A stretch of 64,000 bases of DNA from Calothrix sp. NIES-4105 (lineage in GTDB: Bacteria > Cyanobacteriota > Cyanobacteriia > Cyanobacteriales > Nostocaceae). Shown piece after piece: positions 20,940 through 52,200 of the stretch; position 1 is the first letter of the stretch, and each line of letters begins with the position of its first letter. A program made the position numbers and the translations under genes. The stretch is from positions 4,911,614 to 4,975,613 of the forward strand of contig NZ_AP018290.1 in assembly GCF_002368415.1 (NCBI RefSeq), read 5' to 3'. A model generated the notes under the pieces. The model did not search any database. It saw only the letters and a list, made by a program, of their open reading frames with translations, and was not told the DNA's origin.

Positions 20940-22460
20940 TTGACAACTATGATGAATCCAGAAGAAAAAAGACAGTATGCTATTGAGGCATTTTCCGATT
21001 TTTTAAATACCTCCCTAGATACTCGACTCCAGCGACATTGTGACACAGAACCAACTTCAACAGCTTTGAAGCTATTTAATAATGTCGCTGCAACCGTGCC
21101 TGCATACAAGACCTTCTTATCACAAAACGGTATTAATCCTGCCAGCATTCAAACAGAGAGCGATTTTCAAGCGCTTCCACCCTTAACAAAGCAAAACTAC
21201 CTACAAAAACATTCTCTGCCTGATTTGTGTCGTTACGGACAAATTGAAACCAGCGATATGATAGCAGCATCTTCTGGTTCAACAGGTAAACCAACGTATT
21301 GGTGTAGGTTTTTCGCTGACGAATTAGAAATTACTACACGCTTCGAGCAAATCTTCCACGATAGCTTTTTCGCAGATACCCGTCGCACCCTCGCAGTTAT
21401 TTGTTTTACCCTCGGTACTTGGGTAGGTGGAATGTTCACAACTAACTGCTGTCGTTATCTAGCAATGAAAGGTTATCCAATAACAGTTATTACTCCTGGT
21501 AACAATAAAGATGAAATATTACGTGTTGTCTCGGAACTCGGCACCAACTTTGAGCAAGTCGTGTTATTAGGGTATCCACCATTTCTCAAAGACGTTATAG
21601 ATACAGGAATTGCGCGCGGTGTTGAGTGGCAGCAGTACAACATTAAACTAGTAACAGCAGGAGAAGTATTCAGCGAAGAATGGCGAAGTTTAGTAGCAGA
21701 AAGAATAGGTTCACAAAACCCCTGTTATGATTTTGCATCATTATATGGAACCGCCGATGCAGGGGTATTAGGCAACGAAACACCATTATCTATATGCATT
21801 CGTAGATTTTTAGCAGAAAACCCCTCAGCAGCACGCGCTCTATTTGGAGAATCACGTTTACCTACACTTGTACAGTATGACCCAATGAGTCGTTTTTTTG
21901 AAGTAGAAGACGGCGCCTTACTATTCTCCGGCAACAACGGCATCCCATTAATCAGGTATAATATTTTAGATAACGGTGGTGTTATCACTTATGATAAAAT
22001 GATTGAATTTTTGCAAGGATGGGGATTCAATGTGGCACAGGCATCTTGCCTGTGCAGTCAAAGAGGCATAAGAAATTTACCATTCGTTTACGTATTCGGA
22101 CGCTCAAACTTCACAGTTTCATACTTCGGCGCCAACATATACCCAGAAAACGTCACAGTCGGTTTAGAAGTACCAGAAATTAGAGAATGGGTAACAGGTA
22201 AATTTGTCTTACAAGTAATAGAAGACAGCGATAAAAATAGACATTTAACAGTCACCGTAGAACTGGCGCCGAATATTGAAGCAAGCGTTGACAAAAAACA
22301 AGCAATAACAACATCTATATTGACACAACTAAGGCGCCTCAACAGCGAATTTGCAAATTACGTACCAGCCGAATATCAGGCGCCGCAGGTTACATTAAAA
22401 TTACATGGTGATGGCGAGTACTTTCCCATAGGCGTAAAACATCGATATACACGCGCATAA
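20940..22460 (+). CDS. Phenylacetate-CoA ligase (PaaK)-like adenylate-forming enzyme
   Basis: 506 aa. The phosphate-binding motif ASSGSTGKPTYWCRF near residue 110 and the later SLYGTADAGVLGNETPL and RYNILDNGGVITYD mark an ANL-superfamily enzyme of the PaaK branch, which activates a carboxylic acid as acyl-AMP and usually transfers it to CoA or a carrier. The substrate is unknown. Near residue 365 the segment NVAQASCLCSQRG is encoded by a dispersed hairpin repeat (22035-22055) inserted in frame, in a loop region, without breaking the protein. Start: two ATGs at 20940 region (MTTMMNPEEK); the third Met may also serve. No partner genes adjoin; the kinase upstream is divergent and Uma2 downstream is convergent. 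Confidence 0.75.
   Translation: MTTMMNPEEKRQYAIEAFSDFLNTSLDTRLQRHCDTEPTSTALKLFNNVAATVPAYKTFLSQNGINPASIQTESDFQALPPLTKQNYLQKHSLPDLCRYGQIETSDMIAASSGSTGKPTYWCRFFADELEITTRFEQIFHDSFFADTRRTLAVICFTLGTWVGGMFTTNCCRYLAMKGYPITVITPGNNKDEILRVVSELGTNFEQVVLLGYPPFLKDVIDTGIARGVEWQQYNIKLVTAGEVFSEEWRSLVAERIGSQNPCYDFASLYGTADAGVLGNETPLSICIRRFLAENPSAARALFGESRLPTLVQYDPMSRFFEVEDGALLFSGNNGIPLIRYNILDNGGVITYDKMIEFLQGWGFNVAQASCLCSQRGIRNLPFVYVFGRSNFTVSYFGANIYPENVTVGLEVPEIREWVTGKFVLQVIEDSDKNRHLTVTVELAPNIEASVDKKQAITTSILTQLRRLNSEFANYVPAEYQAPQVTLKLHGDGEYFPIGVKHRYTRA
22035..22055. repeat. Dispersed hairpin repeat inside the PaaK-like gene
   Basis: GCACAGGC / GCCTGTGC, an 8-bp perfect stem with ATCTT loop, translated as part of AQASCLCS. 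Confidence 0.7.
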
Positions 22461-22479
22461 TGATCCCCCACCCCCGTAA

Positions 22480-22496
22480 GGTGGGCACTGCCCACC
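22480..22496 (+). terminator. Hairpin after the PaaK-like gene
   Basis: GGTGGGCA-C-TGCCCACC, followed by ATTTTCT. It serves the plus-strand gene and perhaps also the convergent Uma2 gene; same repeat type as 7124-7140. Confidence 0.55.
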
Positions 22497-22535
22497 ATTT
22501 TCTATAGAAATTCAAGATTAAGCATGTTATTGTTG

Positions 22536-23111
22536 TTACCAAACTAGCCTCATGTCTAAAACAAAACCTAGTAGCACATCTTCTCCTAATAATGTTGCAG
22601 GAGAATCTAATATTTCAACTTCTTGTCCCAAGCGATAAATTTCTACACGACGATTTTTTCTATCTATTAACCAACCTAATCTAACTTCTGCTGCCATATA
22701 TTCGCGCATTTTAGCTTGAGTTTCACTCAAACTATCAGATGGGGACATTAACTCCAACACAAAGTCAGGAGCAATAGGGGGAAATTTTTCTCGTTCAGAA
22801 GGTGTAAGTGCATTCCATCTGTCTATTTGTATCCACGATACATCGGGGGAACGGTCGGGACCATTGGGAAGTTTAAAACAAGTTGAAGAGTCAAATACTT
22901 CCCCTAGTTCGGTTTGTTCGTTCCACAGTACAAACCGTGTAGTAAGTTTGGCATTGCGTTTCCCTGTTTCTCCTCCTGTTGGTGGCGCCACTATTAGTTG
23001 TCCCCATTGATTACGTTCAAATTTGAGTTCAGGATTATCCTGACATAGTTGATAAAATTGGTCGTCTGTCAGCTTTACTACGTTATTCAAGTTAATGGTA
23101 AGGGAAATCAT
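22536..23111 (-). CDS. Uma2 family protein (DUF820), copy 1
   Basis: 191 aa. Residues FYQLCQDNPELKFERNQWGQ, SPDVSWIQIDRW, PPIAPDFVLELMSPSDSL and MREYMAAEVRLGWLIDRKNR carry the acidic and Lys positions of the PD-(D/E)XK fold used by Uma2 proteins. Hundreds of these exist in cyanobacteria; they are called putative endonucleases, but a biological role is not established. It is a close paralogue of the gene at 32762-33337 (most residues the same). Single gene, no signal peptide. ATG at 23111. Confidence 0.85.
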   Translation of the reverse strand: MISLTINLNNVVKLTDDQFYQLCQDNPELKFERNQWGQLIVAPPTGGETGKRNAKLTTRFVLWNEQTELGEVFDSSTCFKLPNGPDRSPDVSWIQIDRWNALTPSEREKFPPIAPDFVLELMSPSDSLSETQAKMREYMAAEVRLGWLIDRKNRRVEIYRLGQEVEILDSPATLLGEDVLLGFVLDMRLVW

Positions 23112-23309
23112 GGTATCGTGTAAAAGCAGCGATTCACTTTATTTTAGCGTAAAGTCGTTAGTTAACAGTCGTTATCTCAGTACAAGGCATAACCTTTTTG
23201 TCAATAAAAATACAGATTAACCCATTTTAGATTAATACAGCAAAGTCTTCCACATAAATTGCTTAGTTTTAGAACTGTGTCATTTTAGATAAGGTAAAAT
23301 AATCTTAAA

Positions 23310-23670
23310 TCACCAATTATACTGATTTAAAACAATAAATTGAGCTTGTAAAGAAAGCCCAGTGTTTTGCAAATTATTTATAGCTTTGACTATTGCTGTA
23401 TAACTCATATTCTTCATTGGGTCAGCATCTTGATATATTGCTAAAATTCCCGAATGTTCTGGGTTCGCTTCGTGAATTGCCAGAAAATCATCGCAGTTAC
23501 GGGTAAGTAATATTCTTTGTTGAACTCTGGCTAGTTCCATTACAGATGCATCAGGTATACCAGTCACACCAGCCTCACCAATTGTTAATACATCATGACC
23601 ATCTGCCCGTAGCATTTCAATAAGACGGCGAGAAGAGTGTGTCTTCATCTACAAATATTCTAAGACTCAA
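23310..23670 (-). pseudogene. DUF5615 PIN-like toxin, frameshifted near its N-terminus
   Basis: From a TTG at 23670, overlapping the antitoxin stop, the frame reads MSLRIFVDEDT. That is the normal start of DUF5615 PIN-like proteins, with the acidic FVDED needed for the nuclease site. The continuation HSSRRLIEMLRADGHDVLTI is one frame away, so one base has been lost or gained near 23640. The conserved rest follows (RILLTRNCDDFLAIH). The open frame beginning with ATG at 23648 would make 112 residues without the first acidic cluster, so it should be inactive as a nuclease. The partner antitoxin directly upstream is intact. Confidence 0.75.
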
Positions 23671-24163
23671 TACTAACACCCCGTTCTTTCAATCGATAAA
23701 GTTCTTCCTGGGCTTCCATCTTGATTAGTTCTTTATTCGCTTCGCAGTAACGAATAATTTCATTAATTGCATCTAATGGTAAATCAAAATTCTCAGCTGC
23801 TTCTTCGGTGCTAAGTTCATTTACCAGGATATCTTGCCAAACAGTAGAAGCTAAAAGGCGTCGTCCTTTTACATAAAGCTGTCGTCTCCAAGGATGTGGA
23901 CGGGATACTAAATATTTCCAAGTTGACTGTGGTGGTGGTTCTAGTTCGGGTATAACCAGATGAATTTGCTCGTTTGGTGTTACAAGTCTTATTTGGTAGC
24001 CTTGTTGCAGATAATTTTGGAGAACCGTTACCACTGATATTGAACGTAAAATCGTTTCTTTGGTAGTTGTGACTCCCATTGCTTGTCGCAACCACTCTAT
24101 TTGCGCTTCTTGTTCAGGTGACACATTGAAATTTTGCCGTTTTGTTTCTCCTGCTTGGCTCAT
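23660..24163 (-). CDS. DUF433-like antitoxin, partner of the DUF5615 protein
   Basis: 167 aa. Residues 10-45 (FNVSPEQEAQIEWLRQAMGV) look like a short DNA-binding segment. The region from about 88 on (HPWRRQLYVKGRRLLASTVW, NELSTEEAAENFDLPLDAIN, EIIRYCEANKELI) is the helix-turn-helix-containing DUF433 module, typically found with DUF5615 toxins. It should bind and neutralise the toxin and repress the operon. Its stop codon overlaps the original toxin start (TTGAGTCTTAG), the usual coupling in this pair. Intact, ATG at 24163. Confidence 0.75.
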   Translation of the reverse strand: MSQAGETKRQNFNVSPEQEAQIEWLRQAMGVTTTKETILRSISVVTVLQNYLQQGYQIRLVTPNEQIHLVIPELEPPPQSTWKYLVSRPHPWRRQLYVKGRRLLASTVWQDILVNELSTEEAAENFDLPLDAINEIIRYCEANKELIKMEAQEELYRLKERGVSIES

Positions 24164-24358
24164 TGGGGTTATGGTTATATGAGTATATTATGAGTATAGC
24201 TTACTCATGTGTCTCGTATAGATTTATTGTCTGCAATCAATATGGACAGGGTACAGAGGGCGCCTATTCCATTTAATCGAACAGACTGCTCTTGACGCTG
24301 ACAATGCAATTGCATTACTATAATCTGTGAAATCTGGCTGACAAACTTGGAAGTACTT

Positions 24359-24688
24359 ATGGCTAGAGATTTAATTCAAGCCCAATCAACGCTTACTCAC
24401 CGATACCAAACTACGATTCCTGATAGTGTGCGAAAAGCTTTGGGCTTAAATAAGCGCGATAAAATTAATTACGCCATTCAGCCAAACGGTCAAGTTATCA
24501 TCTCAAAGGCTGAACAGCTAGAGGATGACCCTGTGCTTGGACAGTTTTTGGATTTTATTGTTGAAGACATTAAAAAGAATCCTCAGCACATTCAGGCTAT
24601 TAGTTCTTCTATCGTTAACCGTGTTCAGTCCTTAGTTGCCGATGTTGAGTTTGATATTGATGCACCACTATCTGATGAGGATGAATAA
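24359..24688 (+). CDS. prlF: PrlF-family antitoxin (AbrB-like)
   Basis: 109 aa from the ATG at 24359 (MARDLIQAQS); an in-frame TTG/ATG lies 12 bases upstream. STLTHRYQTTIPDSVRKALG and INYAIQPNGQVIISKA are the swapped-hairpin AbrB fold of PrlF/SohA, which binds DNA and the YhaV toxin. The tail PLSDEDE is acidic as usual. It is followed after 2 bases by the yhaV-like gene, so the order antitoxin then toxin of the PrlF-YhaV system is kept. Confidence 0.85.
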   Translation: MARDLIQAQSTLTHRYQTTIPDSVRKALGLNKRDKINYAIQPNGQVIISKAEQLEDDPVLGQFLDFIVEDIKKNPQHIQAISSSIVNRVQSLVADVEFDIDAPLSDEDE

Positions 24689-24690
24689 GT

Positions 24691-25080
24691 TTGTCCACAA
24701 GCGAACCGTTGGTAATTAATGGGTGGAGTATTTTTGCTCATCCCCTTTTTCTCGACCAGTTTGAACAACTTTTGACATCTGTTGAACTTCTCCGGCAAAA
24801 TGACCCCCAAAATTATCACAAGAAAAATGCTGCTAAACGTTTGGCAGCTATAGCTAAACTTGTATTTGAAGTTATTCCTCAAGACCCAACGCGCAGTGAG
24901 TACCGTCAAGGCAACACTCTAGGCGCCGAGTATAAACATTGGAAAGCAGCGAAATTTTTCCAACAGTATCGATTGTTCTTTAGATATCACCAAGAAGGTA
25001 AGATTATAGTATTTGCTTGGGTAAATGATGAAGACTCGACAGAAGACAAAATTATTGAAATTCGGAAACATTGCTGTTAA
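24691..25080 (+). CDS. yhaV: YhaV-family toxin with altered C-terminus
   Basis: 129 aa. INGWSIFAHPLFLDQFEQL, AKLVFEVIPQDPTRSEYRQG, YKHWKAAKFFQQYRLFFRYH and IIVFAWVNDED are the core of YhaV, a RelE-superfamily ribosome-dependent or free mRNA nuclease. The start is TTG, 2 bases after the prlF stop. Normal YhaV proteins continue after NDED with about 25-30 residues (a Lys-Thr-Asp-Ala-Tyr segment and a GHPP motif). Here only STEDKIIEIRKHCC follows, and no other frame restores the family sequence, so the 3' end has been replaced. Activity is doubtful because the family's C-terminus contributes catalytic residues. Confidence 0.75.
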   Translation: MSTSEPLVINGWSIFAHPLFLDQFEQLLTSVELLRQNDPQNYHKKNAAKRLAAIAKLVFEVIPQDPTRSEYRQGNTLGAEYKHWKAAKFFQQYRLFFRYHQEGKIIVFAWVNDEDSTEDKIIEIRKHCC

Positions 25081-25237
25081 CGAGCATCTGGCAGCATCAC
25101 CCGATAAAAGTTGCGCCTGCTAAACAACCAGAAATTTTGTTTGGTAGTTAAGCCCTTTGTGCATTCCTACCTGTTACTAAGAACGCCAGTGCTGCAACTG
25201 TAAACATTTATGCTTAAGATGGCACTGTTACGTATAT

Positions 25238-25489
25238 TTAGATTGATAAACTTGGGTTTGGCACCTGCTGAGATACTGTGTCTAGACTTGGCTCAGAGTA
25301 TGGTTTTACGTCATTTTGATGAACTGCAAACCAAGCAATAGTTGTGCCATCTTCGCGGGAAAATTCAACTTCGTAAGCTTCATCACCATATACTTCTAAA
25401 ATAATGCCAATTGCTCCAATTGAGACTCCTCTATCTTGATAGCGGTCTGTAATAAGTTGAATAACTGAATATTGTTCCAGTAGCATCAT
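25238..25489 (-). CDS. DUF4926 protein
   Basis: 83 aa. The core DRYQDRGVSIGAIGIILEVY and AYEVEFSREDGTTIAWFAVH matches DUF4926, a small beta-barrel-like family (KOW/SH3-like pattern: G-D/A-I-G-I-I-L ... YEVEF). It is the second gene of a two-gene unit with the DUF6883 gene 18 bases upstream. These two families are regularly found side by side, and a toxin-antitoxin role has been suspected, but I know of no proof. No signal peptide. Confidence 0.8.
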   Translation of the reverse strand: MMLLEQYSVIQLITDRYQDRGVSIGAIGIILEVYGDEAYEVEFSREDGTTIAWFAVHQNDVKPYSEPSLDTVSQQVPNPSLSI

Positions 25490-25507
25490 GAATTACCCTC
25501 GACATTA

Positions 25508-25891
25508 TCATTCTTTTGCAAATCCAGAAAATGGAGTTGCCAACTTTAGTATACCATCTGTGTCCAAAATCCATCCGGTTAAGAGGCGCCTACCTCGAAT
25601 CTCAACAACTATAGTAAATCTTTGTCCATATTGATCTCTCTCACCAACAATGTAATCACGAAGATTAAACTTAGCTTGAGCTTGACTAATATAAGTTGAC
25701 AAAAGCTCTTGTGCATCCTCATCACTGTTAGGACGAAAGCCTAAAATATTAATAAATATTTTATCCTTACCAGTTTTATGGTTAGGTACTAAAACATAGT
25801 TTGAAAACTTTCTGGGGTCGCCAGTAATAAGTCTTACTTCCCATTCAGTCGATAGTTCTTGATTATTGGCTTTATCTTCACTATTGTTCAT
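25508..25891 (-). CDS. DUF6883 protein
   Basis: 127 aa. FSNYVLVPNHKTGKDKIFIN, ILGFRPNSDEDAQELL, GERDQYGQRFTIVVEI and LTGWILDTDGILKLATPF follow the DUF6883 pattern: a basic, His-containing segment, then D.yGqry, then a closing W. It resembles small toxin-like folds, but no catalytic site is established. First gene of the pair with DUF4926. ATG at 25891. Confidence 0.7.
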   Translation of the reverse strand: MNNSEDKANNQELSTEWEVRLITGDPRKFSNYVLVPNHKTGKDKIFINILGFRPNSDEDAQELLSTYISQAQAKFNLRDYIVGERDQYGQRFTIVVEIRGRRLLTGWILDTDGILKLATPFSGFAKE

Positions 25892-26401
25892 GTCTTCAAA
25901 TGGCTAATTATGCAGATAAAATAATCATTTTTGCACTCATACTTACGTTCTTAATATGTTATTTGATTATTATCTACATTATTATACCAGGAGTATTTAT
26001 TCTTTAGTCATGCACAAACAAGTAAATGAGGACGCAGGCAATAGAAAAAAATATAAATATTTGATACAAATATCTGGCTTTAGCGTACAGAAAATGCTTT
26101 ATCTCAATTGACAATAATAGGTTTAAGCAAGAAGAAGATGACAGATTTTCACGAATTACAATATCTGCTGTTACAGCCATACCTGGTGCCAGACAGCTTT
26201 CCAAAAAATCTGGATAATCCTGATGACGCAGAATATGACAAATGATGAATTTGGCAATAATATTGTAAGTAAGTTGGCGCCGGAAAGCACTACTATGTTG
26301 AGTTTTGTAAAGAAACTCAAACCCAAGCTAAATAAGGCTTTTCTTAAAGTTTACATTCTGTTACTCGCGTTAGTTTTATTTTCACTCACCTACTTATTAC
26401 G
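25892..26401. other. Region without a firm gene
   Basis: A 35-codon plus-strand frame (26138-26245, MTDFHELQYLLLQPYLVPDS) and a hydrophobic frame from 26223 are open, but neither has supporting features. I call no gene here. Confidence 0.35.
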
Positions 26402-26428
26402 AAAAAAAAGGCGCCGTTTGGTGGCGCC
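26402..26428 (-). terminator. Rho-independent terminator built from two GGCGCC boxes
   Basis: GGCGCC-GTTTGGT-GGCGCC can fold into a 6-bp all-GC stem, followed on the minus strand by eight T residues. It ends the decayed two-gene unit at 26455-26854. Confidence 0.7.
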
Positions 26429-26454
26429 CTTGGATACTTCTTACTGTATTGTTT

Positions 26455-26665
26455 TTAGCTTTGATGCATTTGCTCTAACTGAGCTAAAGTTTTTTCTATT
26501 TTGGGTTGATTAATCAACTGGCTAGCTTTTCTTCTGTGCTTCCACCGCTTGCTGCATTAAGCGATGGCCTTCTACATATTTTCCTTGTCGGTTTAAATCA
26601 ACTGCTTGTTGACTTAGCTCTTTGGCTTGCCTTGCTAGCGCTTTTGCTTCTTCAATCATTTTCAT
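26455..26665 (-). pseudogene. Small helical protein, copy 1 (one-base frameshift near the end)
   Basis: The frame from ATG 26665 reads MKMIEEAKALARQAKELSQQ, AVDLNRQGKYVEGH and RLMQQAVEAQKKS, then stops at 26522. One base fewer in the AAAA run before that stop would continue ASQLINQPKIEKTLAQLEQM to the TAA at 26455, so a frameshift is likely. The LNRQGKYVEGHRLMQQAVE part looks like one TPR-type helix pair. It overlaps the end of the gene upstream by a few bases. Two more decayed copies exist at 41906-42051 and 45771-45815. Function unknown. Confidence 0.55.
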
Positions 26666-26854
26666 ACTCCGATATAACTTGTAGTATCGAGTCCGCTTCA
26701 AAGAAAGAGTCTATTGGCTCTTGCTTCTAATAAACTAGCATCTGCATAATCTTCATTTTCGCTCTTCCTGCTCGTATTCCGCATACAACCTGGATATGAT
26801 TGGTTGCATAGAATTATAAGCCTCTAACATTGCTTGTCTAGTAGATTGTTTCAT
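26652..26854 (-). pseudogene. Small protein upstream of the helical protein, frameshifted
   Basis: From ATG 26854: MKQSTRQAMLEAYNSMQPII, SRLYAEYEQEERK, then a stop at 26753. A neighbouring frame continues SENEDYADASLLEARANRLF and, after another shift, FEADSILQVISEYEND, ending in a TGA that overlaps the start of the next gene (ATGAAAATGATTGA). Helical, acidic, no known family. Its last 70 bases are also found beside the copy at 41906. It looks like the first gene of an old two-gene operon. Confidence 0.5.
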
Positions 26855-26969
26855 CGGCACTCCTGATAAAACGACACCGCAGTGTTGGTGTCTGCTTTAA
26901 GTTTTCCTAGTACAACAGGCACAGAAAGCATACTGTGTAACTACGACGGGCATAAATGCTTCGTTACAT

Positions 26970-27030
26970 GACATGGTAATGGCAATGCCATTACCATGTC
27001 AAGAAAAAAGTCATTATAATTGCCATTACC
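26970..27030 (+). promoter_or_regulatory. Palindromic operator upstream of the RHH gene
   Basis: 15-base arms (GACATGGTAATGGCA and its complement) meet around one A at 26970-27000. A third half-site TGCCATTACC lies at 27021-27030. The next gene starts at 27082 and encodes a ribbon-helix-helix protein, so autoregulation is likely. AATATAAATAAGG between site and gene may hold the -10 region. Confidence 0.65.
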
Positions 27031-27081
27031 AATTAAAATTGTTAATTTCAATATAAATAAGGTTTTGGAGGTTTCCGGGTA

Positions 27082-27324
27082 ATGGCAAAACGAGAGAGAA
27101 CTTTGATTCAGTTTCAAGTAGACCCCTTAACGAAAGAAAAATTTACTAAGAAGGTAGCTCAAGAAGGTAAAACCATTACTGAGGTGATGCTTGAATGGAT
27201 TAAGGAATATATAGGCGAAGCTGAAGCTGGTGTTGATGTCATCGAGTTAAATCGGCAAGTTCAAGCTTTGAAGCTTGCTGTCCAAGAAATAAATTCAAGA
27301 CTGGTGGGGAAAACGTCCGCTTGA
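27082..27324 (+). CDS. Ribbon-helix-helix regulator (orphan antitoxin-like)
   Basis: 80 aa. The N-terminal strand RTLIQFQVDPLTKEKF, then KKVAQEGKTITEVMLEWIKE, is the ribbon-helix-helix DNA-binding layout of CopG/ParD/Arc proteins. Residues 48-75 (AGVDVIELNRQVQALKLAVQ) form a likely coiled coil. GGAGG precedes the ATG at good distance. No toxin gene follows, so it is an orphan antitoxin or a stand-alone repressor. The upstream palindrome with a third half-site is the expected type of binding site. Confidence 0.75.
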   Translation: MAKRERTLIQFQVDPLTKEKFTKKVAQEGKTITEVMLEWIKEYIGEAEAGVDVIELNRQVQALKLAVQEINSRLVGKTSA

Positions 27325-27426
27325 GAGAAGAATTGCCTCTTCAAGAAAGATTCTCCTGAAATGCAGGGTTTTTCTCGCACAAACCTTCTTTACATAAGAA
27401 GTTTTGTAGAAGCTTACCTAAAGTTA

Positions 27427-27459
27427 GGAAATTGTCCAACAAATTGTTGGACAATTTCC
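27427..27459 (+). terminator. 33-base perfect palindrome after the RHH gene
   Basis: Arms of 16 bases (GGAAATTGTCCAACAA and its complement) around one A, 100 bases after the RHH stop. Terminator or repeat; the T-run is short. Confidence 0.5.
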
Positions 27460-27579
27460 TTGAAAGCATAACATTCCTGTATCAGATGCAGAAAAACACC
27501 CTGACGCTAGACTTTGATATGTACAAAAGAATTATAAAGGTTGGATATTAGCTCATTGAACTGCTTATGAGGCTTTAAA

Positions 27580-30372: not shown

Positions 30373-30378
30373 TTCTTT

Positions 30379-31167
30379 CTACATTTTGTCAAACAGGCAC
30401 AACAGCAAAGTTTTATCGTCGTCGGTGCGAGCATTCAACCGTTCAGAGTTAAGGAAGTTGCTTAAATATTCGTCTTCCTTCTCTGGGTCGCTCGTTTCCC
30501 GTAAGTATTCCTCTAACGGCTGGAAGAATGGTGGAAAAGGCGCCCAGTCCGAAATGCGTATTGCGAGTTTCTCTAGCCCATCAGTGGAAGCACAGATAAA
30601 TTCTGGTTTTCCTAGCAATACTTCTACCTGCATTTCATCTTTAGCGTTTGTTGATGTGACAAATGTCGTCTCGTTGGCAAATTCTCCTTTATCTGGGGGG
30701 AAAATTAATTTATATTCGCTGTCAGTAGCGCGCGTCACTATAAATCCATCCCCTATCTGCATTGCTGCGACCCATTCAGGAGTAGCGACAAAAACCAAGA
30801 GAGTGCAAGCTAGCTCATCTATAGAATAATCCTTACTATCAGCTTGCTCTTGCAAAGCAGCGCGCGCTTTTAAAAGTGTTTTTGTAAACAGCTTTTTGGC
30901 TCTTTGTTGAGAAAGCGCTTGAGAAGAGCAAAGCGTGCAACGTTTCCGTTTTTGGATGCGTTTAGCAATCTCTAATAAGTGATTTACTACAGATTCAACT
31001 ACCAAGTTTGCCCCAATATCAGAATATTTTGCACTTCCGGCGCCATCAGCTACTGCTCCAACAATCACATCATCCGAAATTTCATATTTACCATAATCTT
31101 GACAAGGCATACCCTGCTTTTGATGACTAACTCCAATTACAGCGCGCGCAATTGCTTTCCACGTCAC
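30379..31167 (-). CDS. PP2C-family protein phosphatase of the TerY-P triad
   Basis: 262 aa. ARAVIGVSHQKQGMPCQDYG, VIVGAVADGAGSAKYSDIGA and the later WVAAMQIGDGFIV and FICASTDGLEKL give the metal-binding Asp residues of PP2C (VADGAGS, IGDGF, STDGL). It resembles E. coli YegK, which acts with the YegI kinase and YegL vWA protein. It removes phosphate from Ser/Thr proteins, probably those phosphorylated by the kinase encoded next. It has a Cys pair (CTLCSSQ) near residue 80. Spacing to the kinase is 6 bases, to the vWA gene 33 bases, so one operon. Confidence 0.88.
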   Translation of the reverse strand: MTWKAIARAVIGVSHQKQGMPCQDYGKYEISDDVIVGAVADGAGSAKYSDIGANLVVESVVNHLLEIAKRIQKRKRCTLCSSQALSQQRAKKLFTKTLLKARAALQEQADSKDYSIDELACTLLVFVATPEWVAAMQIGDGFIVTRATDSEYKLIFPPDKGEFANETTFVTSTNAKDEMQVEVLLGKPEFICASTDGLEKLAIRISDWAPFPPFFQPLEEYLRETSDPEKEDEYLSNFLNSERLNARTDDDKTLLLCLFDKM

Positions 31168-32741: not shown

Positions 32742-32761
32742 GAAAATTACCCTACTATGGA

Positions 32762-42051: not shown

Positions 42052-42137
42052 GCTCCGATATTACTTGTAGTATTAAGTCTGCTTCAAAGAAAGAGTCTAT
42101 TGGCTCTTGCTTCTAATAAACTAGCATCTGCATAATC

Positions 42138-43921: not shown

Positions 43922-43994
43922 CTTAATTACTCAACTTTTTAAATAAGTTAACGCCAGCGAAAACAGCTAAATAAATTTAAAATAAAGTACTTAT

Positions 43995-44030
43995 AAAAAT
44001 CACCTAATATGCATTAGTAATACCATTAGT
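43995..44030 (-). promoter_or_regulatory. Upstream element of the DUF4114 gene, shared with the RTX gene
   Basis: Minus strand: ACTAATGGTATTACTAATGC, then ATATTAGGTGATTTTT. The final part CTAATG..ATTAG-GTGATTTTT matches 40415-40437. Confidence 0.55.
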
Positions 44031-44093
44031 ATTTTGTGCCAGGATTTGCCCATACAAAAAAGTACACTTAGAGGTTTGAAAAGTCTAAAAATA

Positions 44094-44225
44094 TACATTA
44101 AACCCCTCTCCAAACCTCTCCCCGTTCACGTAGTGTGCCGCTTCGGCAAGCGGGGAGAGGCTTTAAAAGCCTTATACTATCGTTCCCCTTCCCTCGTAGG
44201 GAAGGGGTTAGGGGTTAGGTTTTTG
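44094..44225. repeat. Dispersed repeat, CCCCTCTCC / GGGGAGAGG type
   Basis: AACCCCTCTCCAAACCTCTC, then CTTCGGCAAG, then CGGGGAGAGGC. A second inverted pair CCCCTTCCCTCGTAGGGAAGGGG sits near 44186-44208. These are typical intergenic repeats. Confidence 0.6.
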
Positions 44226-44371
44226 GTCAATATTGATACTTTTCAAACATCCTCTTAGGGTTAACCTTCACGTAGAAAGAAACCCTTACAACTAACGGCG
44301 CCGTTTAATATGACGTAATTTCAGCAGTTGAAGCTAACCTTCGTGTAGTTATTTATCCTACAAAAACGTTC

Positions 44372-44612
44372 ACAGGTGTTAAGTTTAGTCCTAACAATGA
44401 TGTGTTTGCTAGTTGCAGTCAAGACGAGACAATTCGACTTTGGGATGTCAAGAAAGGGAAGTGTCGGTAAGTAGTGCGCGCGCGTCGTCATAGCTGAAAA
44501 TATGAATATTACGGGTATCACTGGCTTAACAGCAGCGCAAAAAGCAACACTAAAAATTCTAGGCGCCATAGAATCAGCCCAGGATACTACACAAAGAACT
44601 GCATTTTGGTAG
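44372..44612 (+). pseudogene. C-terminal remnant of a WD40 STAND gene
   Basis: One WD40 unit, TGVKFSPNNDVFASCSQDET, IRLWDVKKGKCR, then a stop and frame change; then ENMNITGITGLTAAQKATLK, ILGAIESAQDTTQ. The second part equals the tail of the intact gene at 49274-52900 (GMNITGITGLNSAQKATLKT). So a third copy of that gene ended here. Confidence 0.75.
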
Positions 44613-44654
44613 TACAGAAAAACTTACTGTACAAATATAAATTACACGCAAACG

Positions 44655-44683
44655 GTAGAGACGTTACATGTGCGCGTCTCTAC
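44655..44683. repeat. GTAGAGACG palindromic repeat, intergenic copy
   Basis: GTAGAGACGTTACATG then TGCGCGTCTCTAC; imperfect copy of the family seen at 46821, 48328 and 51097. Confidence 0.75.
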
Positions 44684-44751
44684 AATCCATTCATATGCGT
44701 TCACGCAGTGTTCCCCAGGAAAGCAAAATCACACTGACAGGTAATTTGAAA

Positions 44752-45039
44752 TCACTCATTACTTTGGTCTGATCTGAGATTGATTTTTTGCTCTCGCATC
44801 CTATCTAGAATCCGTTTTTCTGCTACTTCTAAGTGAGCAAGCCCGTCTAGTGTTTCTTGTTTCTTTTTTTGCACTATTTCCAAGTTACGAATCAGGTATT
44901 CACCACTTAAATAATAATTGCCTAATCGCAATACTTCCTCATCTGATACTTCTTTTCCAGCGAAAGCATTACTTTCAAGCTCCTCTATTTTTTCAATCCA
45001 AGTATGTGCTTGTTCAGGTGTCATGTCTATCTTCTCCAA
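44752..45039 (-). CDS. Small coiled-coil protein paired with the GNAT-like gene
   Basis: 95 aa: MEKIDMTPEQAHTWIEKIEE, KEVSDEEVLRLGNYYLSGEY, LEIVQKKKQETLDGLAHLEV. Charged and helical, with a likely coiled coil from residue 45 to 90. No family known. It overlaps the upstream gene by 13 bases, so it is translationally coupled to it. Confidence 0.6.
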   Translation of the reverse strand: MEKIDMTPEQAHTWIEKIEELESNAFAGKEVSDEEVLRLGNYYLSGEYLIRNLEIVQKKKQETLDGLAHLEVAEKRILDRMREQKINLRSDQSNE

Positions 45040-45623
45040 CGCAATTTATATGCTTCTAAAAATTGTAGCGCTTTTTCTCTTGTAAGTATCATCTCTCTGG
45101 AACCATCTGGGTTCTCTTCAAACCCAATACTTCTGTAAAATTCGATGGCTGCTGGTATGGCTGCTACTTTGAGTATTCCACTCATTTGATTTGGAGGAGA
45201 AATAGCTTCTTGAATTATTTCTGCTACTAGCCAAGTCGCTGCTCCTTTTTTTGTCTCAGGTACACTTTGGGGTAAGCAGTTCCAAGGTGCAGAGCAAAGT
45301 ATATCTAAAAGTAGATGTTCTTGCCGACCTTCATATAAATAGATTTCTCCTCTTCTGCTCTCAATAATTGCACCAGCGTGAAGCATATTATCGCTTGCTA
45401 CTCCTCTAAAACTAGTAGGATAATCGCTAGCAGATTCTAGTAAATATTGAGATTTATTCATGCAAATACCAAACTTAGTTCTTAGGGCATTAGCCGGGTC
45501 TGCATCATAGTATTCAATCAAGTAACTCTGTATCTTATTCTGCCAATATAATAAATTAGAAATTACTACATCATTTGCATAATTTACAAAAACAAATTGA
45601 TTTATCGTCATAGTAATTGACAT
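45027..45623 (-). CDS. GNAT acetyltransferase-like protein
   Basis: 198 aa. The C-terminal part GAATWLVAEIIQEAISPPNQ ... ILKVAAIPAAIEFYRSIGFE resembles the end of the GNAT fold (alpha 3, beta 5, then FYxxxGFE). The acetyl-CoA loop usually written Q/RxxGxG/A is not obvious; KKGAATWL may be the altered form. The N-terminal 110 residues (FVFVNYANDVVISNLLYWQN) are not typical. A Met four codons in could be the start. With the small helical partner it resembles a two-gene toxin-antitoxin layout, but that is only a guess. Confidence 0.5.
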   Translation of the reverse strand: MSITMTINQFVFVNYANDVVISNLLYWQNKIQSYLIEYYDADPANALRTKFGICMNKSQYLLESASDYPTSFRGVASDNMLHAGAIIESRRGEIYLYEGRQEHLLLDILCSAPWNCLPQSVPETKKGAATWLVAEIIQEAISPPNQMSGILKVAAIPAAIEFYRSIGFEENPDGSREMILTREKALQFLEAYKLRWRR

Positions 45624-45740
45624 TAAATTTAAAATAATTTTAATCTAAATTGTACTCTTTTTTAATAGTTTAATATTTTTTTAGTTAATTTATATAACAA
45701 AACTATTACGATAAAAATTTAAAAGCAGATATTATTCATA

Positions 45741-45815
45741 AGCGCCATAAAATCAGCGCACAATGCTACACAAGCGCTTGTCTTATCAACGCTTTTGCTT
45801 TTTCAATCATTTTTA
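45741..45815. pseudogene. Fragments of a STAND gene tail and of the small helical gene
   Basis: Plus strand 45741-45775: SAIKSAHNATQ, matching GAIESAQDTTQ at 44570. Minus strand 45771-45815: MIEKAKALIRQAL, third copy of the helical gene (26455). The two remnants are fused here. Confidence 0.55.
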
Positions 45816-46142
45816 TGCTCCAATATTATTTGTAGTATAGTCCTTAGTGTTTAATATAATTAAGAGCTTTGTTGGGTTACGCTGCGCTTTACCCAACAAA
45901 AGTAGGTAAATTTTGTTACATTTAAGCAATCATCCTAATATGCGCGTTAATATTTGGTATAAAGGTACAGCAAGTAACATCTTCTTCAAAAAAATACATA
46001 CTGCCTCATCCTAGATAAAAAACCAAAGTTATTACCAGGTAGGATTTACAGCCAATTATTTAATTTTTGTGTAGCTTTAACCAAATTCTTTATGTGTGAT
46101 TTAAGATACTAGTTATCAAAATTTATTCCAACCATCAATTTA
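45816..46142. other. Gene-free stretch
   Basis: No gene. It holds one GTTGGGTTAC...ACCCAAC repeat (45870-45898); the rest is AT-rich. Confidence 0.4.
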
Positions 46143-46238
46143 ATGGTATTACACGCTTATTCACCGGGTAAGGAGTTCGCGCGCTTTGTCGAAGCAAGCA
46201 AGTGTTGGTTTGTGCATCAAGTCCAACTGAAATGTTAA
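46143..46238 (+). pseudogene. N-terminal remnant of a STAND gene
   Basis: ATG then VLHAYSPGKEFARFVEASKC, W. The DNA aligns with the start of the gene at 46446 (LLHSSSRCEEFAQKFVQANE), including the bases before the ATG, and then jumps to CAAGTCCAACTGAAAT, like CAGTCCAACTGAGAT 170 bases into that gene. So a deleted duplicate of the N-terminus. Confidence 0.6.
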
Positions 46239-46445
46239 TTACCCGTATTGAAAATACAGTGGATGATGTATTTTTTATTACTATTTAATTGAAGAGTAGG
46301 CGTTTGATTGCTAGATTCCTACTTAGTCTGGAGTCATTGTTAATTAAGACTTACGGCGAATTATAAAGTTTGTGTTTTTTTTAACACTAGTGTTAATACT
46401 TAGGCTAATATATTTAAGTTAAAAACTTTTATCAGAAAAATTGTA

Positions 46446-48305
46446 ATGTTATTACACTCATCATCACGATGCGAAGAGTTCGCGCAGAAGTTTGTTCAAG
46501 CCAACGAGTCTTGGAACTTGGAGCAGTTGTATCAAGATATTGCTTTTGCCAAGCACCAAGAGAGACAACTATATCGTAAACAACTGACTCCGACGGAAAA
46601 AGCTTGTTTACGAGGGTTAATTTGTGGTTACAGTCCAACTGAGATAGCTTGGGAACTCAACCGCGAACCAAATGGTTTACGGGTGGAGCTTTCCAGAGGT
46701 TTATATAGATATATCGAGAGTTTGACTCACACCCGCATCAAAAATTGGAGCAACGTCTCAAAAGAATTGGAAAACAAAGGATATAAATTACATAGCATAG
46801 GTACAAACGTTGCCGCAAATTGTAGAGACGTTACATGTAACGTCTCTACAATCCAAAATCCATTCATGTCTGAAGGCAAATCTATTCATTGTCGAAGACA
46901 GATCCAAAATCAAACTGATTGGGGAGAAGCCATAGATGTATCTATATTCTACGGGCGCCACACCGAACTCACTACGCTACAATACTGGATAGAACAAGAC
47001 AAATGTCGTGTAGTTGCCCTGTTAGGTATGGGTGGAATTGGAAAAACTGCCTTATCTGTGAAGTTAGCGCAACTGGTAGAAAACGAGTTTGACTTTGTAA
47101 TTTGGCGCAGTCTCCGTGATGCTCCGACCATAGAAGAACTATTAGATACATTAATCAAATTTTTCTCGTGCCAGCAAGAAATTAATTTACCTCAAACGGT
47201 CGGCACCAAAATATCACGTTTAATTGAATATCTACGTAATGCACGTTGCTTGATAGTATTAGATAACTTTGATGCTGTGTTATCTGGTGGAGAACGCGCG
47301 GGTAATTATCGCTCTGGGTATGAAGACTACGGGGTACTGCTACAACGACTCTCCGAAACGGCGCATAATAGTTGTTTAGTGCTAACTTCGCGCGAGAAAC
47401 CAACGGAAGTGGCAGCTTATTCTGGAGAATTTCTACCAGTTCGTACTTTACAGTTGTCAGGATTGAATAATGATCATGCACAGGGTATTTTAGCTGCTAA
47501 AGGTCTGACTGGGTCGGTGGAGGAGATTGAGAAATTAATCGAGTGTTATGGAGGAAACCCATTAGCACTAAAAATTGCAGCGACTTCAATTTTTGATTTG
47601 TTTGATGGTAGCATTGCTGATTTTTTACAAGAAGGGACAACTGTTTTTAACGGTGTTCGCAATCTTTTAGACCGCCAATTTAAGCGCTTATCACCTCTAG
47701 AAGAAGATGTAATGTACTGGACTTGTATTAATCGTGAACCTGTACAAGTAGCAGAATTACAAGGTGATATTGTGCCAACGGTATCGAAAGGCAATGTATT
47801 GGAATCATTAGAGTCTTTAACTTGGCGTTCTTTAATCGAAAAACGTAGAGACGTGATTAATCACGTCTCCACATTCACGCAGCAACCTGTAATCATGGAA
47901 TATATGACTGAGCGATTGGTTACAGGCGCCACCCAAGAGATAAAAACAGGTAAAATTAATTTATTAAATAAATACGCTTTAATTAAGGCTACTGCTAAAG
48001 ATTATATTCGCTCTAGTCAAGTTCGTGTGATTTTAGAACCTGTATTAGCTAATTTACAGTCTGATTTAAAATCTCAATCTGTAATTGAACAGAAAATTAA
48101 AAACAATCTTTATAACCTGCGCGATCAATTTTCAAATCAATCAGGGTACTTGAATGGGAATTTGATTAATTTGTTACACCACCTCAATGTTGACTTAACT
48201 GGGTATGATTTTTCGGGTTTAACTATTTGGCAGGCTTACTTACAAGGTGCAAATTTACATCATTGTAACTTTATAAATGCGAATATTCACAAGTCAAATT
48301 ATTAA
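46446..48305 (+). CDS. NB-ARC STAND ATPase, truncated before the WD40 repeats
   Basis: 619 aa. Residues 1-110 are the HTH domain common at the start of such cyanobacterial proteins (RQLTPTEKACLRGLICGYSP). NB-ARC follows: VALLGMGGIGKTALSVKLAQ (P-loop), CLIVLDNFDAV (Walker B), SCLVLTSREK and GGNPLALKIAAT. The last 100 residues begin a pentapeptide-type stretch (LTGYDFSGLTIWQAYLQGAN) and stop at HKSNY, just where the paralogue at 49274 runs on into WD40 repeats. So the sensor half is missing. Two palindromic repeats are translated inside it (46821-46850 and 47845-47872). It may be a decoy, a regulator or simply decaying. Confidence 0.8.
   Translation: MLLHSSSRCEEFAQKFVQANESWNLEQLYQDIAFAKHQERQLYRKQLTPTEKACLRGLICGYSPTEIAWELNREPNGLRVELSRGLYRYIESLTHTRIKNWSNVSKELENKGYKLHSIGTNVAANCRDVTCNVSTIQNPFMSEGKSIHCRRQIQNQTDWGEAIDVSIFYGRHTELTTLQYWIEQDKCRVVALLGMGGIGKTALSVKLAQLVENEFDFVIWRSLRDAPTIEELLDTLIKFFSCQQEINLPQTVGTKISRLIEYLRNARCLIVLDNFDAVLSGGERAGNYRSGYEDYGVLLQRLSETAHNSCLVLTSREKPTEVAAYSGEFLPVRTLQLSGLNNDHAQGILAAKGLTGSVEEIEKLIECYGGNPLALKIAATSIFDLFDGSIADFLQEGTTVFNGVRNLLDRQFKRLSPLEEDVMYWTCINREPVQVAELQGDIVPTVSKGNVLESLESLTWRSLIEKRRDVINHVSTFTQQPVIMEYMTERLVTGATQEIKTGKINLLNKYALIKATAKDYIRSSQVRVILEPVLANLQSDLKSQSVIEQKIKNNLYNLRDQFSNQSGYLNGNLINLLHHLNVDLTGYDFSGLTIWQAYLQGANLHHCNFINANIHKSNY
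46821..46850. repeat. Perfect 30-base GTAGAGACG palindrome inside an ORF
   Basis: Arm TGTAGAGACGTTACA and its complement. It is read as CRDVTCNVST in the NB-ARC protein, between the HTH and the ATPase. Confidence 0.85.
47845..47872. repeat. GTAGAGACG palindrome inside the same ORF
   Basis: GTAGAGACGTGATT then AATCACGTCTCCAC, one mismatch; read as RRDVINHVST. Confidence 0.8.
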
Positions 48306-48327
48306 ATTATAAAAAAAAAAACTAAAA

Positions 48328-48357
48328 TGTAGAGACGCGATATATCGCGTCTCTACA
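48328..48357. terminator. 30-base GTAGAGACG palindrome between convergent genes
   Basis: Arm TGTAGAGACGCGATA and its complement. Placed between the ends of two convergent genes, so it could act as a bidirectional terminator. Preceded by A10. Confidence 0.65.
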
Positions 48358-48405
48358 ATCTAAATATTCATGAATAATTTAGGATTACTGTATTATCTAC
48401 TTCCT

Positions 48406-48978
48406 CTAAAAATGATAAGAAACACCAACAGAAAGCACTGGATAAATACTATATCCATCTAAATCTTTTTCCAGTTGTCTTTCCTCAGCTTTCACATCTC
48501 TAAGGATTTGTTCCCGTGTTGCTGCAGGTACACTTGGGTCAATATTTCCGGTAACATCAACATTAGGAGAACCTGTAAACATTACACCTAAATTAACCGC
48601 AAAACTCAAACGATTTCCTGGTCTTACAGCATTACCCCAACCAATACCTAAATAAGGCGCCACGCTATTTGGTAAAGAAACCTTTGCTTTTGCAGAACCA
48701 ATTTGAGAGGTATTGTAAGTATTACCATTAAACTCAAACTCTTGGTTATTTCTAGCTTGGGCATTTCCTTCAACTTTATTGTTGTTAAATACTACACCTC
48801 CTGTTAAGCGAAGACCAGAATTTTTGAAAGGATGATAATCAACTAAAGTCGAAACATTCAATAAATTCAAATCTGCTTTGTATTTAACGTCGGTTTCCTC
48901 AATATCGATACCGTAAGAAAAAGCATTGATCCCCACTCTTGCATTTAAATTAGGTGTCAGTGATCTCGTTGTGGCAAT
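48406..48978 (-). pseudogene. Outer-membrane beta-barrel protein lacking its N-terminus
   Basis: The open frame starts after a TAG at 48981 and reads IATTRSLTPNLNARVGINAF, DIEETDVKYKADLNLLNVST, then alternating strands (YLGIGWGNAV, LSFAVNLGVMFTG) and ends YPVLSVGVSYHF, with the C-terminal Phe of outer-membrane barrels. The signal peptide and the first strands are missing, and there is only a GTG at 48936 to start from. So it should not be exported. A porin-like OmpW/COG3637-type family is likely. Confidence 0.65.
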
Positions 48979-49273
48979 CTAAAAATTTACCTAGAAATAG
49001 AAATGGTAATAGCTTAATATTGCCATCTGTACTAAGACAGATATTTCTAAGCTACTTAATACTTTAACAACATGTATCTTATTTGACAGTCACAAAAGGT
49101 AATGATAAAGTCATAATAAAGTAATATTTTATACTAAAAAATAATAGTTATATGGTTAATTAGCTAAAAAAATTTTATATCCTGAAATATAAGTCAGAGC
49201 ATGGTATACCTAAATACTTTTGCGTTGTAGATGACGCAAATACTTTAAATCACCCACACAAAAGGAGATGATA

Positions 49274-52200
49274 TTGTTGACGGTTGAAGAGGGATTAGCA
49301 GTTGTTGAGCAGTTACTACCGCAAGGAAATTTGAATAAAGTTCAGCAAATTGTTTTTCGCTGTTCCTGGGCTGGTCAGTCTTACAACGAGATGGCTAAGA
49401 CTTATGACTATGATTATGGTTATATAAAAGACACTGGCTCAAAGCTGTGGCAATTACTGACAAAACTTCTGGGTGAGAAGGTAACAAAACTCAATATCAA
49501 GGGCGTATTATGGCGTTACGTCAAATGTAAAGACCCGGCATGTACGGTTTCCACAATCCCAAATTCAATATCCATAATCCAAAATACGGATTGGGGAGAA
49601 GCCATAGACGTATCTATATTCTACGGGCGCCAAAGAGAACTTACCACATTACAACACTGGTTAAAACAAGATAAATGCCGTGTAGTTGCCTTATTAGGAA
49701 TGGGTGGAATTGGTAAAACTGCTTTATCAGTAAAGTTAGCGCAACTGGTAGAAAACGAGTTTGACTTTGTAATTTGGCGCAGTCTCCGCGATGCTCCTCC
49801 ACTCCACGAATTATTAGATATACTAATCAAATTTTTCTCATGTCTTACTGAAACGAATTTACCTCAAACTCTCGGCGCCAAAATCTCGCGTTTGATTGAA
49901 TATATACGTAATGCACGTTGCTTAATAGTACTAGATAATTTTGACGCTGTGTTATCTAGTGGTCAGCGTGCAGGTAATTATCGCTGTGGGTATGAAGATT
50001 ATGGGGAACTGCTGCAACGACTTTCTGAAGTATCACATCAAAGTTGTTTAGTGCTGACTTCACGCGAGAAACCAGCAGAGGTAGCAGCTTACTCTGGAGA
50101 ATTTCTACCAGTTCGTTGTTTGCAATTATCAGGATTGAATAATGATGACGTGCGAGGCATTTTAGCTGCTAAGGGTCTTACTGGGTCTGTGGATGAAATA
50201 GAGAAATTAATTGAGCGTTATGGAGGAAACCCATTAGCACTAAAAATTGTAGCAACTTCTATTTTTGATTTATTTGATGGTAGTATAGCTGATTTTCTCC
50301 ACTCAGGCACAACTGTTTTTAATAGTGTTCACAATCTTTTAGAACGCCAATTTGAGCGGTTATCACCCTTAGAACAAGATATAATGTACTGGACTTGTAT
50401 TAATAGAGAACCTGTGCGAGTTGCAGAATTACAGGCAGATATTGTGCCAGCAGTATCAAAAGCAAATATATTAGAATCATTAGAGTCTTTGACTTGGCGT
50501 TCTTTAATCGAAAAAAGTAGAGACGTGATTAATCACGTCTCCACAATTAATCACGTCTCCACATTTACGCAGCAACCAGTAGTCATGGAGTATATGACTG
50601 AGCAACTCGTTGCAGGCGCCACCGAAGAGATAAAGACAGGTAAGATTGAATTATTAAATAAATACGCTTTGATAAAAGCAACTTCTAAGGATTATATTCG
50701 TGACAGTCAGATTCGCGTGATGTTAGAACCAATATTAGCTAATTTACAGTCAGACTTCAAATTTAAATCGGAAGTTGAAAATAAAATTAAAAAAAATTTG
50801 CGTAATAATTTTTCAGAACAACCAGGATACAAAAGTGGAAATTTGATTAATTTATTACGCCAACTCAAAGTTGACTTGACTGGGTATAATTTTTCTGGTT
50901 TAAACATTTGGCAGGCTGACTTACAAGGCGCCTGTTTACATGACTGTAATTTTGCCAATACCAATGTTAGTAAATCCAATTTTAGCCAAGCGTTAGCGAA
51001 TATTCTTTCGGTAGATTTTAGCCTTGATGGAAAGCTTTTTGCAACCGGTGATGCTAATGGGGATGTGTGTTTGTGGGATGCGGGTAAAATACACAATGTA
51101 GAGACGTTACATGTAACGTCTCTACACGGTCATGTTGGATGGGTGTGGTGGGTCAAATTCAGTCCTGATGGAAAAACGCTTGTTAGCAGTGGCGAAGATG
51201 GTACTATCAGAGTCTGGAATATAAGTACTGGTGAATGCTTACACGTTATACAAGCTTATTCGATGCGATGTGCATCGGTTAGTTTTAGCCCAGATGGAAA
51301 AATATTAGCAAGCGGTGGAGTTGATGGAACTATCAAACTTTGGGATGTTAGGACTTGGCAATGCGTAAATATATTCAAAGGACATACAAAGCTTTTACGC
51401 GCGGTTACTTTTAGTCCAGATGGTTTATTCATTGCAAGTGGAAGCGATGACCATACTGTAAAGCTATGGAATATTAAGGACGCTGAATGTCTATATACAT
51501 TTACAGAACATACTGATGCAGTTCTTTCGGTTGCCTTTAGTCGCTCTTGGCGCCTTCTCGCTACCGGAAGCGCAGATAAAACTATAAAATTATGGTGCCT
51601 CGACACAGGTAAATGCTGGAAAACACTACAAGGTAATCAACTTGATACAGTTGTTACAGTTGTTTTTAGTCCTAATGGGCAAACCCTAGTTACTGGGGGT
51701 GAAGCATCTGTCATTAGTTTGTGGGATATCGAAACTGGACAATGTTTGCAAACTTTCGGTGGACATACAAGACGTGTCTGGTCGGTTACTTTTAACCCTC
51801 AAGGAAATATTCTTGCCAGTGTGAGTAGAGACCAAACTGTAAGACTATGGGATGTTGCCACAGGCAAATGCTTGAAAACCTTGCAGGGTTATACAGGTAG
51901 AGTTTGGACGGTAGCTTTTAGTCAAGATGGTAAATATTTAGCCAGCGGTACAGACAACACCGTTAGACTTTGGAATTTGTCTAATAATAAATGCTTCAAA
52001 ACTTTCCACGGTCACACCTGTGAAGTTTGCTCGCTGACTTTTACTGACAATGGACAACTAGCTAGCAGTAGCTATGACCAAACAATCAGAATTTGGGACA
52101 CTAATATTCATGAAGACGCTCCTTATCGCGTCTCTACACGACTCACTCAGCACTCATCACTCACCACTATAAAAGGACATACTGGTTTTGTATTTTCTGT

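Follow-up and report, generated by a model that had tools for sequence, protein, structure and literature searches.

Here we describe a short palindromic repeat found in a stretch of 64,000 nucleotides of Calothrix sp. NIES-4105 (contig NZ_AP018290.1, positions 4,911,614 to 4,975,613; hereafter the window), which occurs between genes as well as inside them, where it is translated. An earlier note, made from the letters of the window, had claimed that such palindromes are read in frame within several genes; this was confirmed, and the genome-wide pattern is far stronger than that of the window. Taken together, our results make it quite probable that a dispersed palindrome, once or still mobile, enters genes, and that selection leaves in-frame copies at tolerated positions. 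Repeat DNA that is non-coding in origin is thereby supplying pieces of real proteins, and perhaps also rewriting them.

A palindrome dispersed between and within genes

The core of the family is a 28-nt palindrome, GTAGAGACG-N10-CGTCTCTAC, with one further base on each side partly conserved. In the genome of the organism itself (G000, 12.04 Mb), 224 copies with exact arms were counted, against 0 for the reversed pattern used as control; within the window, GTAGAGACG with at most one mismatch occurs 21 times against 6.0 expected, a number reached by 0 of 100 shuffles. The family was found in 44 of 60 genomes including its own (43 of 59 relatives), with 1 to 383 copies per genome, and in four genomes of one genus, all at 99% completeness, the copy number ranges from 72 to 503, which suggests a recent spread of the palindrome.

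The outer 9 bases are near-constant, the terminal GTAG being complementary to the CTAC at the opposite end in the consensus, and the inner arms fall into subtypes (TTACATGTAA, CGATTAATCG, CGATATATCG and others), all of them still palindromic. Among 99 copies whose left arm is exact and whose right arm has at most two mismatches, each of the five innermost pairs is Watson-Crick in 91-96 copies; four of these pairs are variable, with 40-52 paired copies expected if the arms were independent, and the fifth is nearly invariant. The length is 28 nt in 107 of the 122 copies found in 2.4 Mb of the own genome plus the window (reversed sequence, 0), and among those 107 the genic copies are paired as well as the others (means of 13.06 and 13.02 of 14 pairs, respectively).

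According to the gene model, 17 of the 122 copies lie in frame in genes, 0 are shifted and 0 carry a stop, while 13 have coding on one side, one lies between opposite strands and 91 are without coding; for random 28-mers (n = 2000) the figures were 934 in frame inside genes, 15 called shifted and one stopped. A looser finder, applied to 1.26 Mb, detected 13 in-frame copies and no shifted one, and kept the copies at 219108, 786906 and 46822, which the 122-copy finder or its coding threshold dropped. With a separate gene model, 24 of 116 copies are within called genes compared to 2408 of 3000 random places. From this depletion, together with the 17 copies in frame and none shifted or stopped, we conclude that genes are avoided and that the copies persisting in them are in frame; out-of-frame copies as frequent as in-frame ones, which the earlier note had taken as the sign of a contrary explanation, were not observed. 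One of the three frames of the palindrome contains a TAG stop, and the other two read VET....SL or RD....VS, used by 9 and 8 of the genic copies, respectively.

Tandem repeats of the sequence adjoining the copies are frequent. Their periods within genes are 15, 18 or 24 nt, multiples of three in 5 of 5 cases (one of which, at 732107, repeats the flank rather than the arm); between genes, just 2 of 12 periods (2 of 8 loci) are divisible by three. The 18-nt unit of the window and the 15-nt units of loci L036 and L038, described below, agree with this pattern. Separately, the linker of a hybrid histidine kinase (G000 C1 1724100-1724310) displays several in-frame 18-nt units encoding SGDAIN beside two palindromes.

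The host genes, whose naming covers part of the host open reading frames (ORFs), include those for NB-ARC and WD40 proteins, an AAA_35 protein and its WD40-carrying paralogue, a ModB-ModC fusion, adenylation domains of non-ribosomal peptide synthetases (NRPS), a hybrid histidine kinase and an M1 peptidase. Further, a photolyase-like host gene corresponds to the DPRP photolyase-related protein (best solved match, 8ijy), and a homologue of Mg-chelatase subunit H is a distant relation of the solved ChlH, its best NCBIfam model being BchH, below the cut-off and with half of the protein given. A polyketide synthase encoded on a Planktothrix agardhii plasmid contains VETLHATSL in frame. Where examined, the genic copies are mostly in linkers and turns. 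The ModBC linker harbors palindromes with differing arms in the own genome and in five relatives of the same genus, several of them with extra arms, as seen by DNA comparison (20 loci as input, rows obtained from 17, with locus L258 of G001 outside the set), and the reading frames of the ModBC genes with linker palindromes are open.

Occupied, empty and possibly rewritten sites

Homologues lacking the repeat allowed the comparison of occupied and empty sites. In the photolyase-related gene the repeat is absent from two genomes of the same genus (92 and 94% protein identity), the net gain being 24 nt, and 25 of 29 homologues are 4-8 residues shorter at this site. Within the own genome, 5 of 16 NRPS adenylation domains carry the palindrome and the remaining 11 are shorter by 6 or 7 residues; the loop, which precedes YKTGD, reads CRDAINRVST in the own genome and VQTRLIAS, encoded in the other frame, in Halotia branconii, a difference that argues for independent entry. 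After the NB-ARC domain, RRDVINHVST aligns with ISEGGETV or similar residues in Microcoleus homologues, which are 2 residues shorter.

A hairpin in a PaaK-like gene (positions 20940..22460 of the window, + strand, 506 aa; a name taken from the earlier note, without a Pfam match at E 0.001) had been listed beside the palindrome copies. This hairpin (22035..22055) is translated in frame, as had been stated; it belongs, however, to another family and is length-neutral against some homologues. G002 and G003 also have it, G004 has it twice, and G005 and G006 keep a decayed form; G001 and more distant relatives lack it. The corresponding loop in G001, G010, G011 and G017, which are without the hairpin, differs in length by one residue at most, and that of six others is 3-21 residues longer. 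No second copy of the hairpin core was found in 2.4 Mb of the own genome. In addition, a separate palindrome family, GGTGGGCANTGCCCACC, is present in the window and in G000, with 102 matches on both strands in 2.4 Mb and 0 in the reversed control.

The net gain at the compared sites thus ranges from 0 to 8 residues, and these loop-length comparisons (photolyase, NRPS, post-NB-ARC and PaaK-like) indicate that the repeats often replace loop residues. The earlier proposal that the repeats can act as protein-coding insertions is partly borne out, by the 17 of 17 copies in frame, the empty sites (net gain of 24 nt) and the multiples of three, and has to be amended as regards the replaced residues.

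The series of events we consider probable would be as follows. A fully self-complementary dispersed repeat of 28-30 nt, TGTAGAGACG-N10-CGTCTCTACA, mobile now or formerly in filamentous cyanobacteria, would land in genes, or be converted into them, as well as in intergenic DNA. Selection would then purge any copy that causes a frameshift, ends translation or strikes structured protein, so that the survivors within genes would be in frame and situated mainly in linkers, hairpin turns and inter-domain loops. The repeat-coded peptide would be a passenger, the palindrome could decay with the peptide retained, and tandem arm repeats in genes would survive as multiples of three.

Several observations weigh against this account. 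Simple insertion is not the whole story, since the net gain of 0 to 8 residues is below the 9-10 residues coded by the repeat. Four of the 29 photolyase homologues have loops that are equally long or one residue longer without a palindrome, and the structural model, of moderate confidence, places the photolyase insert in a helix and not in a loop. The photolyase site is the one close empty site, its boundaries are ambiguous and compatible with several insertion lengths, and no clean target-site duplication was seen there. Intergenic empty sites are unreadable in the genus with 72-503 copies, its species being too diverged. The proportion of 17 in frame out of 17 may partly reflect ascertainment, as broken genes could be lost or missed by the gene model. 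Finally, the 2.4 of 12 Mb searched yielded no convincing transposon bearing these ends.

The repeated occupation of a single loop is best seen in the Mg-chelatase H homologue, for which the loop before GILLYRKHV was compared in 28 genomes (the own and 27 others). In 11 genomes without an evident repeat this loop has 9-11 residues, with 13 in G018 and 19 in G045. A single GTAGAGACG-type palindrome is present in G000, G002, G003, G010, G011 and G013 (12-15 residues), and two palindromes in G012 (24 residues); the loop of G017 (23 residues) combines a related palindrome with an arm repeat. Other repeat types occupy the loop of G007, G016, G046, G009 and G008 (17-64 residues), and the long loops of G014 and G038 (29 and 30 residues) are of uncertain nature; the classes other than palindromes were assigned by eye. 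In total, at least 13 of the 28 genomes bear a repeat in this loop, 8 having palindromes and at least 5 others a different kind of repeat. The loop is within the longest open frame of the locus in each genome, and nine Mg-chelatase H matches each show one internal stop, which falls outside the open frame containing the loop. A second Mg-chelatase H site, near 3823 of locus L208 (G006), also has an in-frame palindrome, and several relatives have AACCGC-AAGACGC-type sequence there.

This loop bears on a further, more tentative possibility, for which our confidence is rather low: certain loops may be standing slots into which unrelated small repeats enter repeatedly in frame, and where hairpin-templated copying or conversion would rewrite the palindrome as a unit, leaving it to DNA structure, and not to selection on residues, to set the amino acids of the loop. 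A genic palindrome could be kept palindromic in place by hairpin-templated replication, namely template switching at quasipalindromes, as reported for E. coli (PMC7202029), or else by conversion from other copies, a reading to which we give an equally guarded credence; both arms being kept in step, the loop peptide would change as a unit. Consistent with this, G000 and G003 share the slot and its flanks (86 and 91% identical over 300 nt on each side), yet 8 of the 28 nt of their repeats differ, all in 4 fully compensated pairs. Likewise, the slot shared with G010, G011 and G013 contains in G017 a palindrome of 28 nt in which three outer pairs are altered on both sides. A search allowing up to two arm mismatches found no second palindrome of this type in G017 itself or in G000, G010 and G090, the last belonging to the genus of G017. 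The four sequences of the same-slot set retain 54 of 56 pairs, a number reached by 0 of 5000 shuffles (mean 41), in which duplicate arms were counted once, the double copy of G012 was excluded, and few sequences entered without regard to their relatedness.

Conversely, four old shared sites (NB-ARC turn, NB-ARC linker, NRPS entry and WD40 join) pair barely above shuffles, with 126, 146, 659 and 242 of 2000 reaching the observed value, respectively (duplicate arms and the G012 double copy being treated as above); there the palindrome is decaying and the peptide partly outlasts it. Independent re-insertion into the same slot could also look alike, G017 being perhaps an exception (the G090 slot was outside the comparison). 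As the shuffles ignore relatedness, in-place rewriting remains a lead.

Palindromes of the window

The copies in the window, to which no strand is assigned, are concentrated in and around two adjacent paralogous genes on the + strand. The named loci nearest to the window are those of Dulcicalothrix desertica PCC 7102, Calothrix sp. PCC 7716 and Spirirestis rafaelensis. The first of the two genes is an NB-ARC gene (46446..48305, 619 aa) with two palindromes, and the second a WD40-repeat gene (49268..52900, 1210 aa) whose N-terminal part is paralogous to it, and which contains two palindromes, one decayed and one degenerate copy. The first gene stops short of the WD40 part. In the Spirirestis locus (L037), a single open frame of 1295 codons spans the match to 46446-52900. 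PADLOC gave one partial HEAT-ARM match for the WD40-repeat gene and none for the NB-ARC gene. Given their low to moderate confidence (mean predicted local distance difference test, pLDDT, of 58.6 and 60.5), the AlphaFold models were used for rough placement only.

Three copies are intergenic, namely an inner-arm variant, GTAGAGATCGGAAATTTCCGGTCTCTAC, at 16267..16294, an imperfect palindrome of 29 nt at 44655..44683, and one at 48329..48356, which is 23 nt past the stop of the first NB-ARC gene. Within that gene, the copy at 46822..46849 (14 of 14 pairs) is translated as CRDVTCNVST in a linker between the N-terminal part and NB-ARC, a region of low confidence in the model, and the copy at 47845..47872 as RRDVINHVST, for which a beta hairpin following NB-ARC is predicted (pLDDT ~63-68). 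In the second gene, the copy at 50517..50544 is translated as SRDVINHVST and that at 51098..51125 as VETLHVTSL, at a junction of WD40 blades; a degenerate copy (52113..52137) lies between WD40 blades, and D. desertica (L036) has a near-complete palindrome in the same linker. The positions reported earlier proved accurate to within 1 base and the translations within ORFs held, as did the in-frame arm duplication at 50517, an 18-nt repeat of the right arm (50545..50562, INHVST), at whose place L036 and L038 have 15-nt units.

The earlier list of genic copies requires corrections. The copies at 47845 and 50517 exist as described, but they represent one insertion event copied by gene duplication and not two, given that they occupy the same place in the paralogous NB-ARC genes, as they likewise do in both paralogues of L036 and L038. 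Further, a decayed paralogue counterpart of the copy at 46822 had been missed, at 49527..49554 (8 of 14 pairs, translated CKDPACTVST). The copy at 51098 is also old, as Spirirestis has a decayed form at the identical place. Residues resembling those of the repeat in the absence of the DNA palindrome, which the earlier note had regarded as adverse to its idea, were found at such old sites, with the peptide partly kept (49527, and Spirirestis at 51098).

Other explanations and relation to known repeats

A functional role of the repeat as a DNA or RNA signal, such as a terminator or an mRNA hairpin, for which the genic copies would be retained, is unlikely. Convergent gene pairs flank 31 of 92 intergenic copies, an enrichment over the 79 of 592 random places, and unidirectional gaps show no enrichment; compensatory changes preserve the hairpin, and pairing in genic copies matches that of the others. 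However, promoter avoidance would also produce the convergent-gene enrichment, and a terminator would do harm if placed within coding sequence. Relatives carry anywhere from 0 to 503 copies, part of the peptide outlives the palindrome in old genic copies, and the window contains no Rfam family at gathering score.

Membership in the systems of repetitive extragenic palindromes (REPs) and REP-associated tyrosine transposases (RAYTs), or in IS200/IS605-type systems, is very unlikely. The terminal GTAG is reminiscent of REPs, and transposase genes of this type, whose presence the earlier note had suggested checking, do exist (23 Y1_Tnp matches in the own genome). Nevertheless, the GTAG is paired here and the REP tag is unpaired (PMC3733652), and copies are not enriched near Y1_Tnp loci: with a looser finder, and 20 of the 23 matches covered, a palindrome is within ~1.5 kb of 4 of 20 loci, against ~3.3 expected given the density of the 122-copy set. 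There is hence no sign, in this one genome, that these transposases mobilise the palindrome, and the link was rejected.

As for other vehicles, the inverted pairs in 2.4 Mb amount to one exact solo pair, inside a WD40 gene, or to 8 pairs if one arm may mismatch. One subtype searched in 50,697 phage records gave no match, and 5 and 8 plasmid records match two subtypes. Some copies (G000 C1 184896, 227205, 312754 and others) have a longer loop with TACCTGCGGTACACT-like sequence or its complement, which is possibly another small repeat nested at the hairpin tip. In the genus with 72-503 copies (G027, L280 1-160, 13820-13960 and 14560-14680), palindromes also lie within repeats of ~95-105 nt with inverted ends near AGACATCTCCA or ATCATGTCCG; these are of two different kinds, each with its own inverted ends, and look like mini-transposons. 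The idea that loops merely happen to be encoded by palindromic DNA, in support of which some conserved motifs do contain the end sequence by coincidence, one being CGTCTCTACAAA of an NRPS module, has next to no chance of being right and is refuted by the reversed controls (0 against 224 and 0 against 122 copies; 6 and 2 with looser finders).

The dispersed palindrome, probably filtered by selection within genes, finds its closest parallels in repeats already known. Rickettsia palindromic elements (RPEs) are palindromic repeats found in frame, and translated, in unrelated genes (PMC10969869; PMC3733652), RPE-4/6 being named REP-like in the latter. The likeness to RPEs proposed earlier holds for behaviour, as the palindrome described here is also in frame within unrelated genes, but not for length: RPEs measure ~150 bp (PMC10969869), whereas this repeat has 28-30 nt and belongs to another phylum. 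Most of its copies are moreover intergenic, and the net gain is often below the element size. It also resembles the GTAG REPs, including the cyanobacterial GTAG-12, -15 and -16, which are palindromes of 20-40 nt with terminal GTAG and compensatory-stem subfamilies, with many copies between convergent genes and some intragenic (PMC3733652). It differs from them, by description only in the case of GTAG-12/15/16, in that the GTAG is paired into the stem, no RAYT link was seen and unidirectional gaps are unenriched. The available part of PMC3733652 names no cyanobacterial case of an intragenic REP.

Less close are the enterobacterial RU elements, likewise small mobile sequences whose frames join annotated genes, which differ in being units of 103-168 bp resembling miniature inverted-repeat transposable elements in other organisms (PMC2759123), and the mitochondrial palindromes of Nematomorpha, perfect palindromes likewise retained in coding genes, which differ in reaching 284 bp, in lying in conserved coding regions and, in the available part of the source, in not being described as dispersed repeats (PMC6649704).

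Heterocystous cyanobacteria reportedly harbor tiny mobile repeats, the small dispersed repeats (SDRs) of Nostoc punctiforme, with families of 21-27 nt; in the work of Elhai et al. from 2008, some are said to have conserved hairpins, to be nested and to occur inside mini-transposons. Our palindrome was compared with SDRs at the level of this description.

In-frame palindromic repeats are therefore already known from Rickettsia and as intragenic REPs, the differences here being the length, the paired GTAG and the lack of a RAYT link; the palindrome works like RPEs or intragenic REPs but misses tested features of both. No prior report of such palindromes within cyanobacterial genes was found among the matches listed, in a search with most of the subscription literature outside it.

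Our results extend translated palindromic repeats beyond Rickettsia and other bacteria to a large group of free-living phototrophs, and to enzymes with solved relatives. Because dozens of species offer one loop in its empty, filled, doubled and rewritten states for comparison, two questions become testable, namely how repeats of less than 30 nt spread without a known partner enzyme, and whether non-coding DNA structure steers protein sequence. The findings also call for caution, in that loop differences in cyanobacterial alignments, such as those of NRPS, chelatase and WD40 proteins, may be repeat-derived and not functional.

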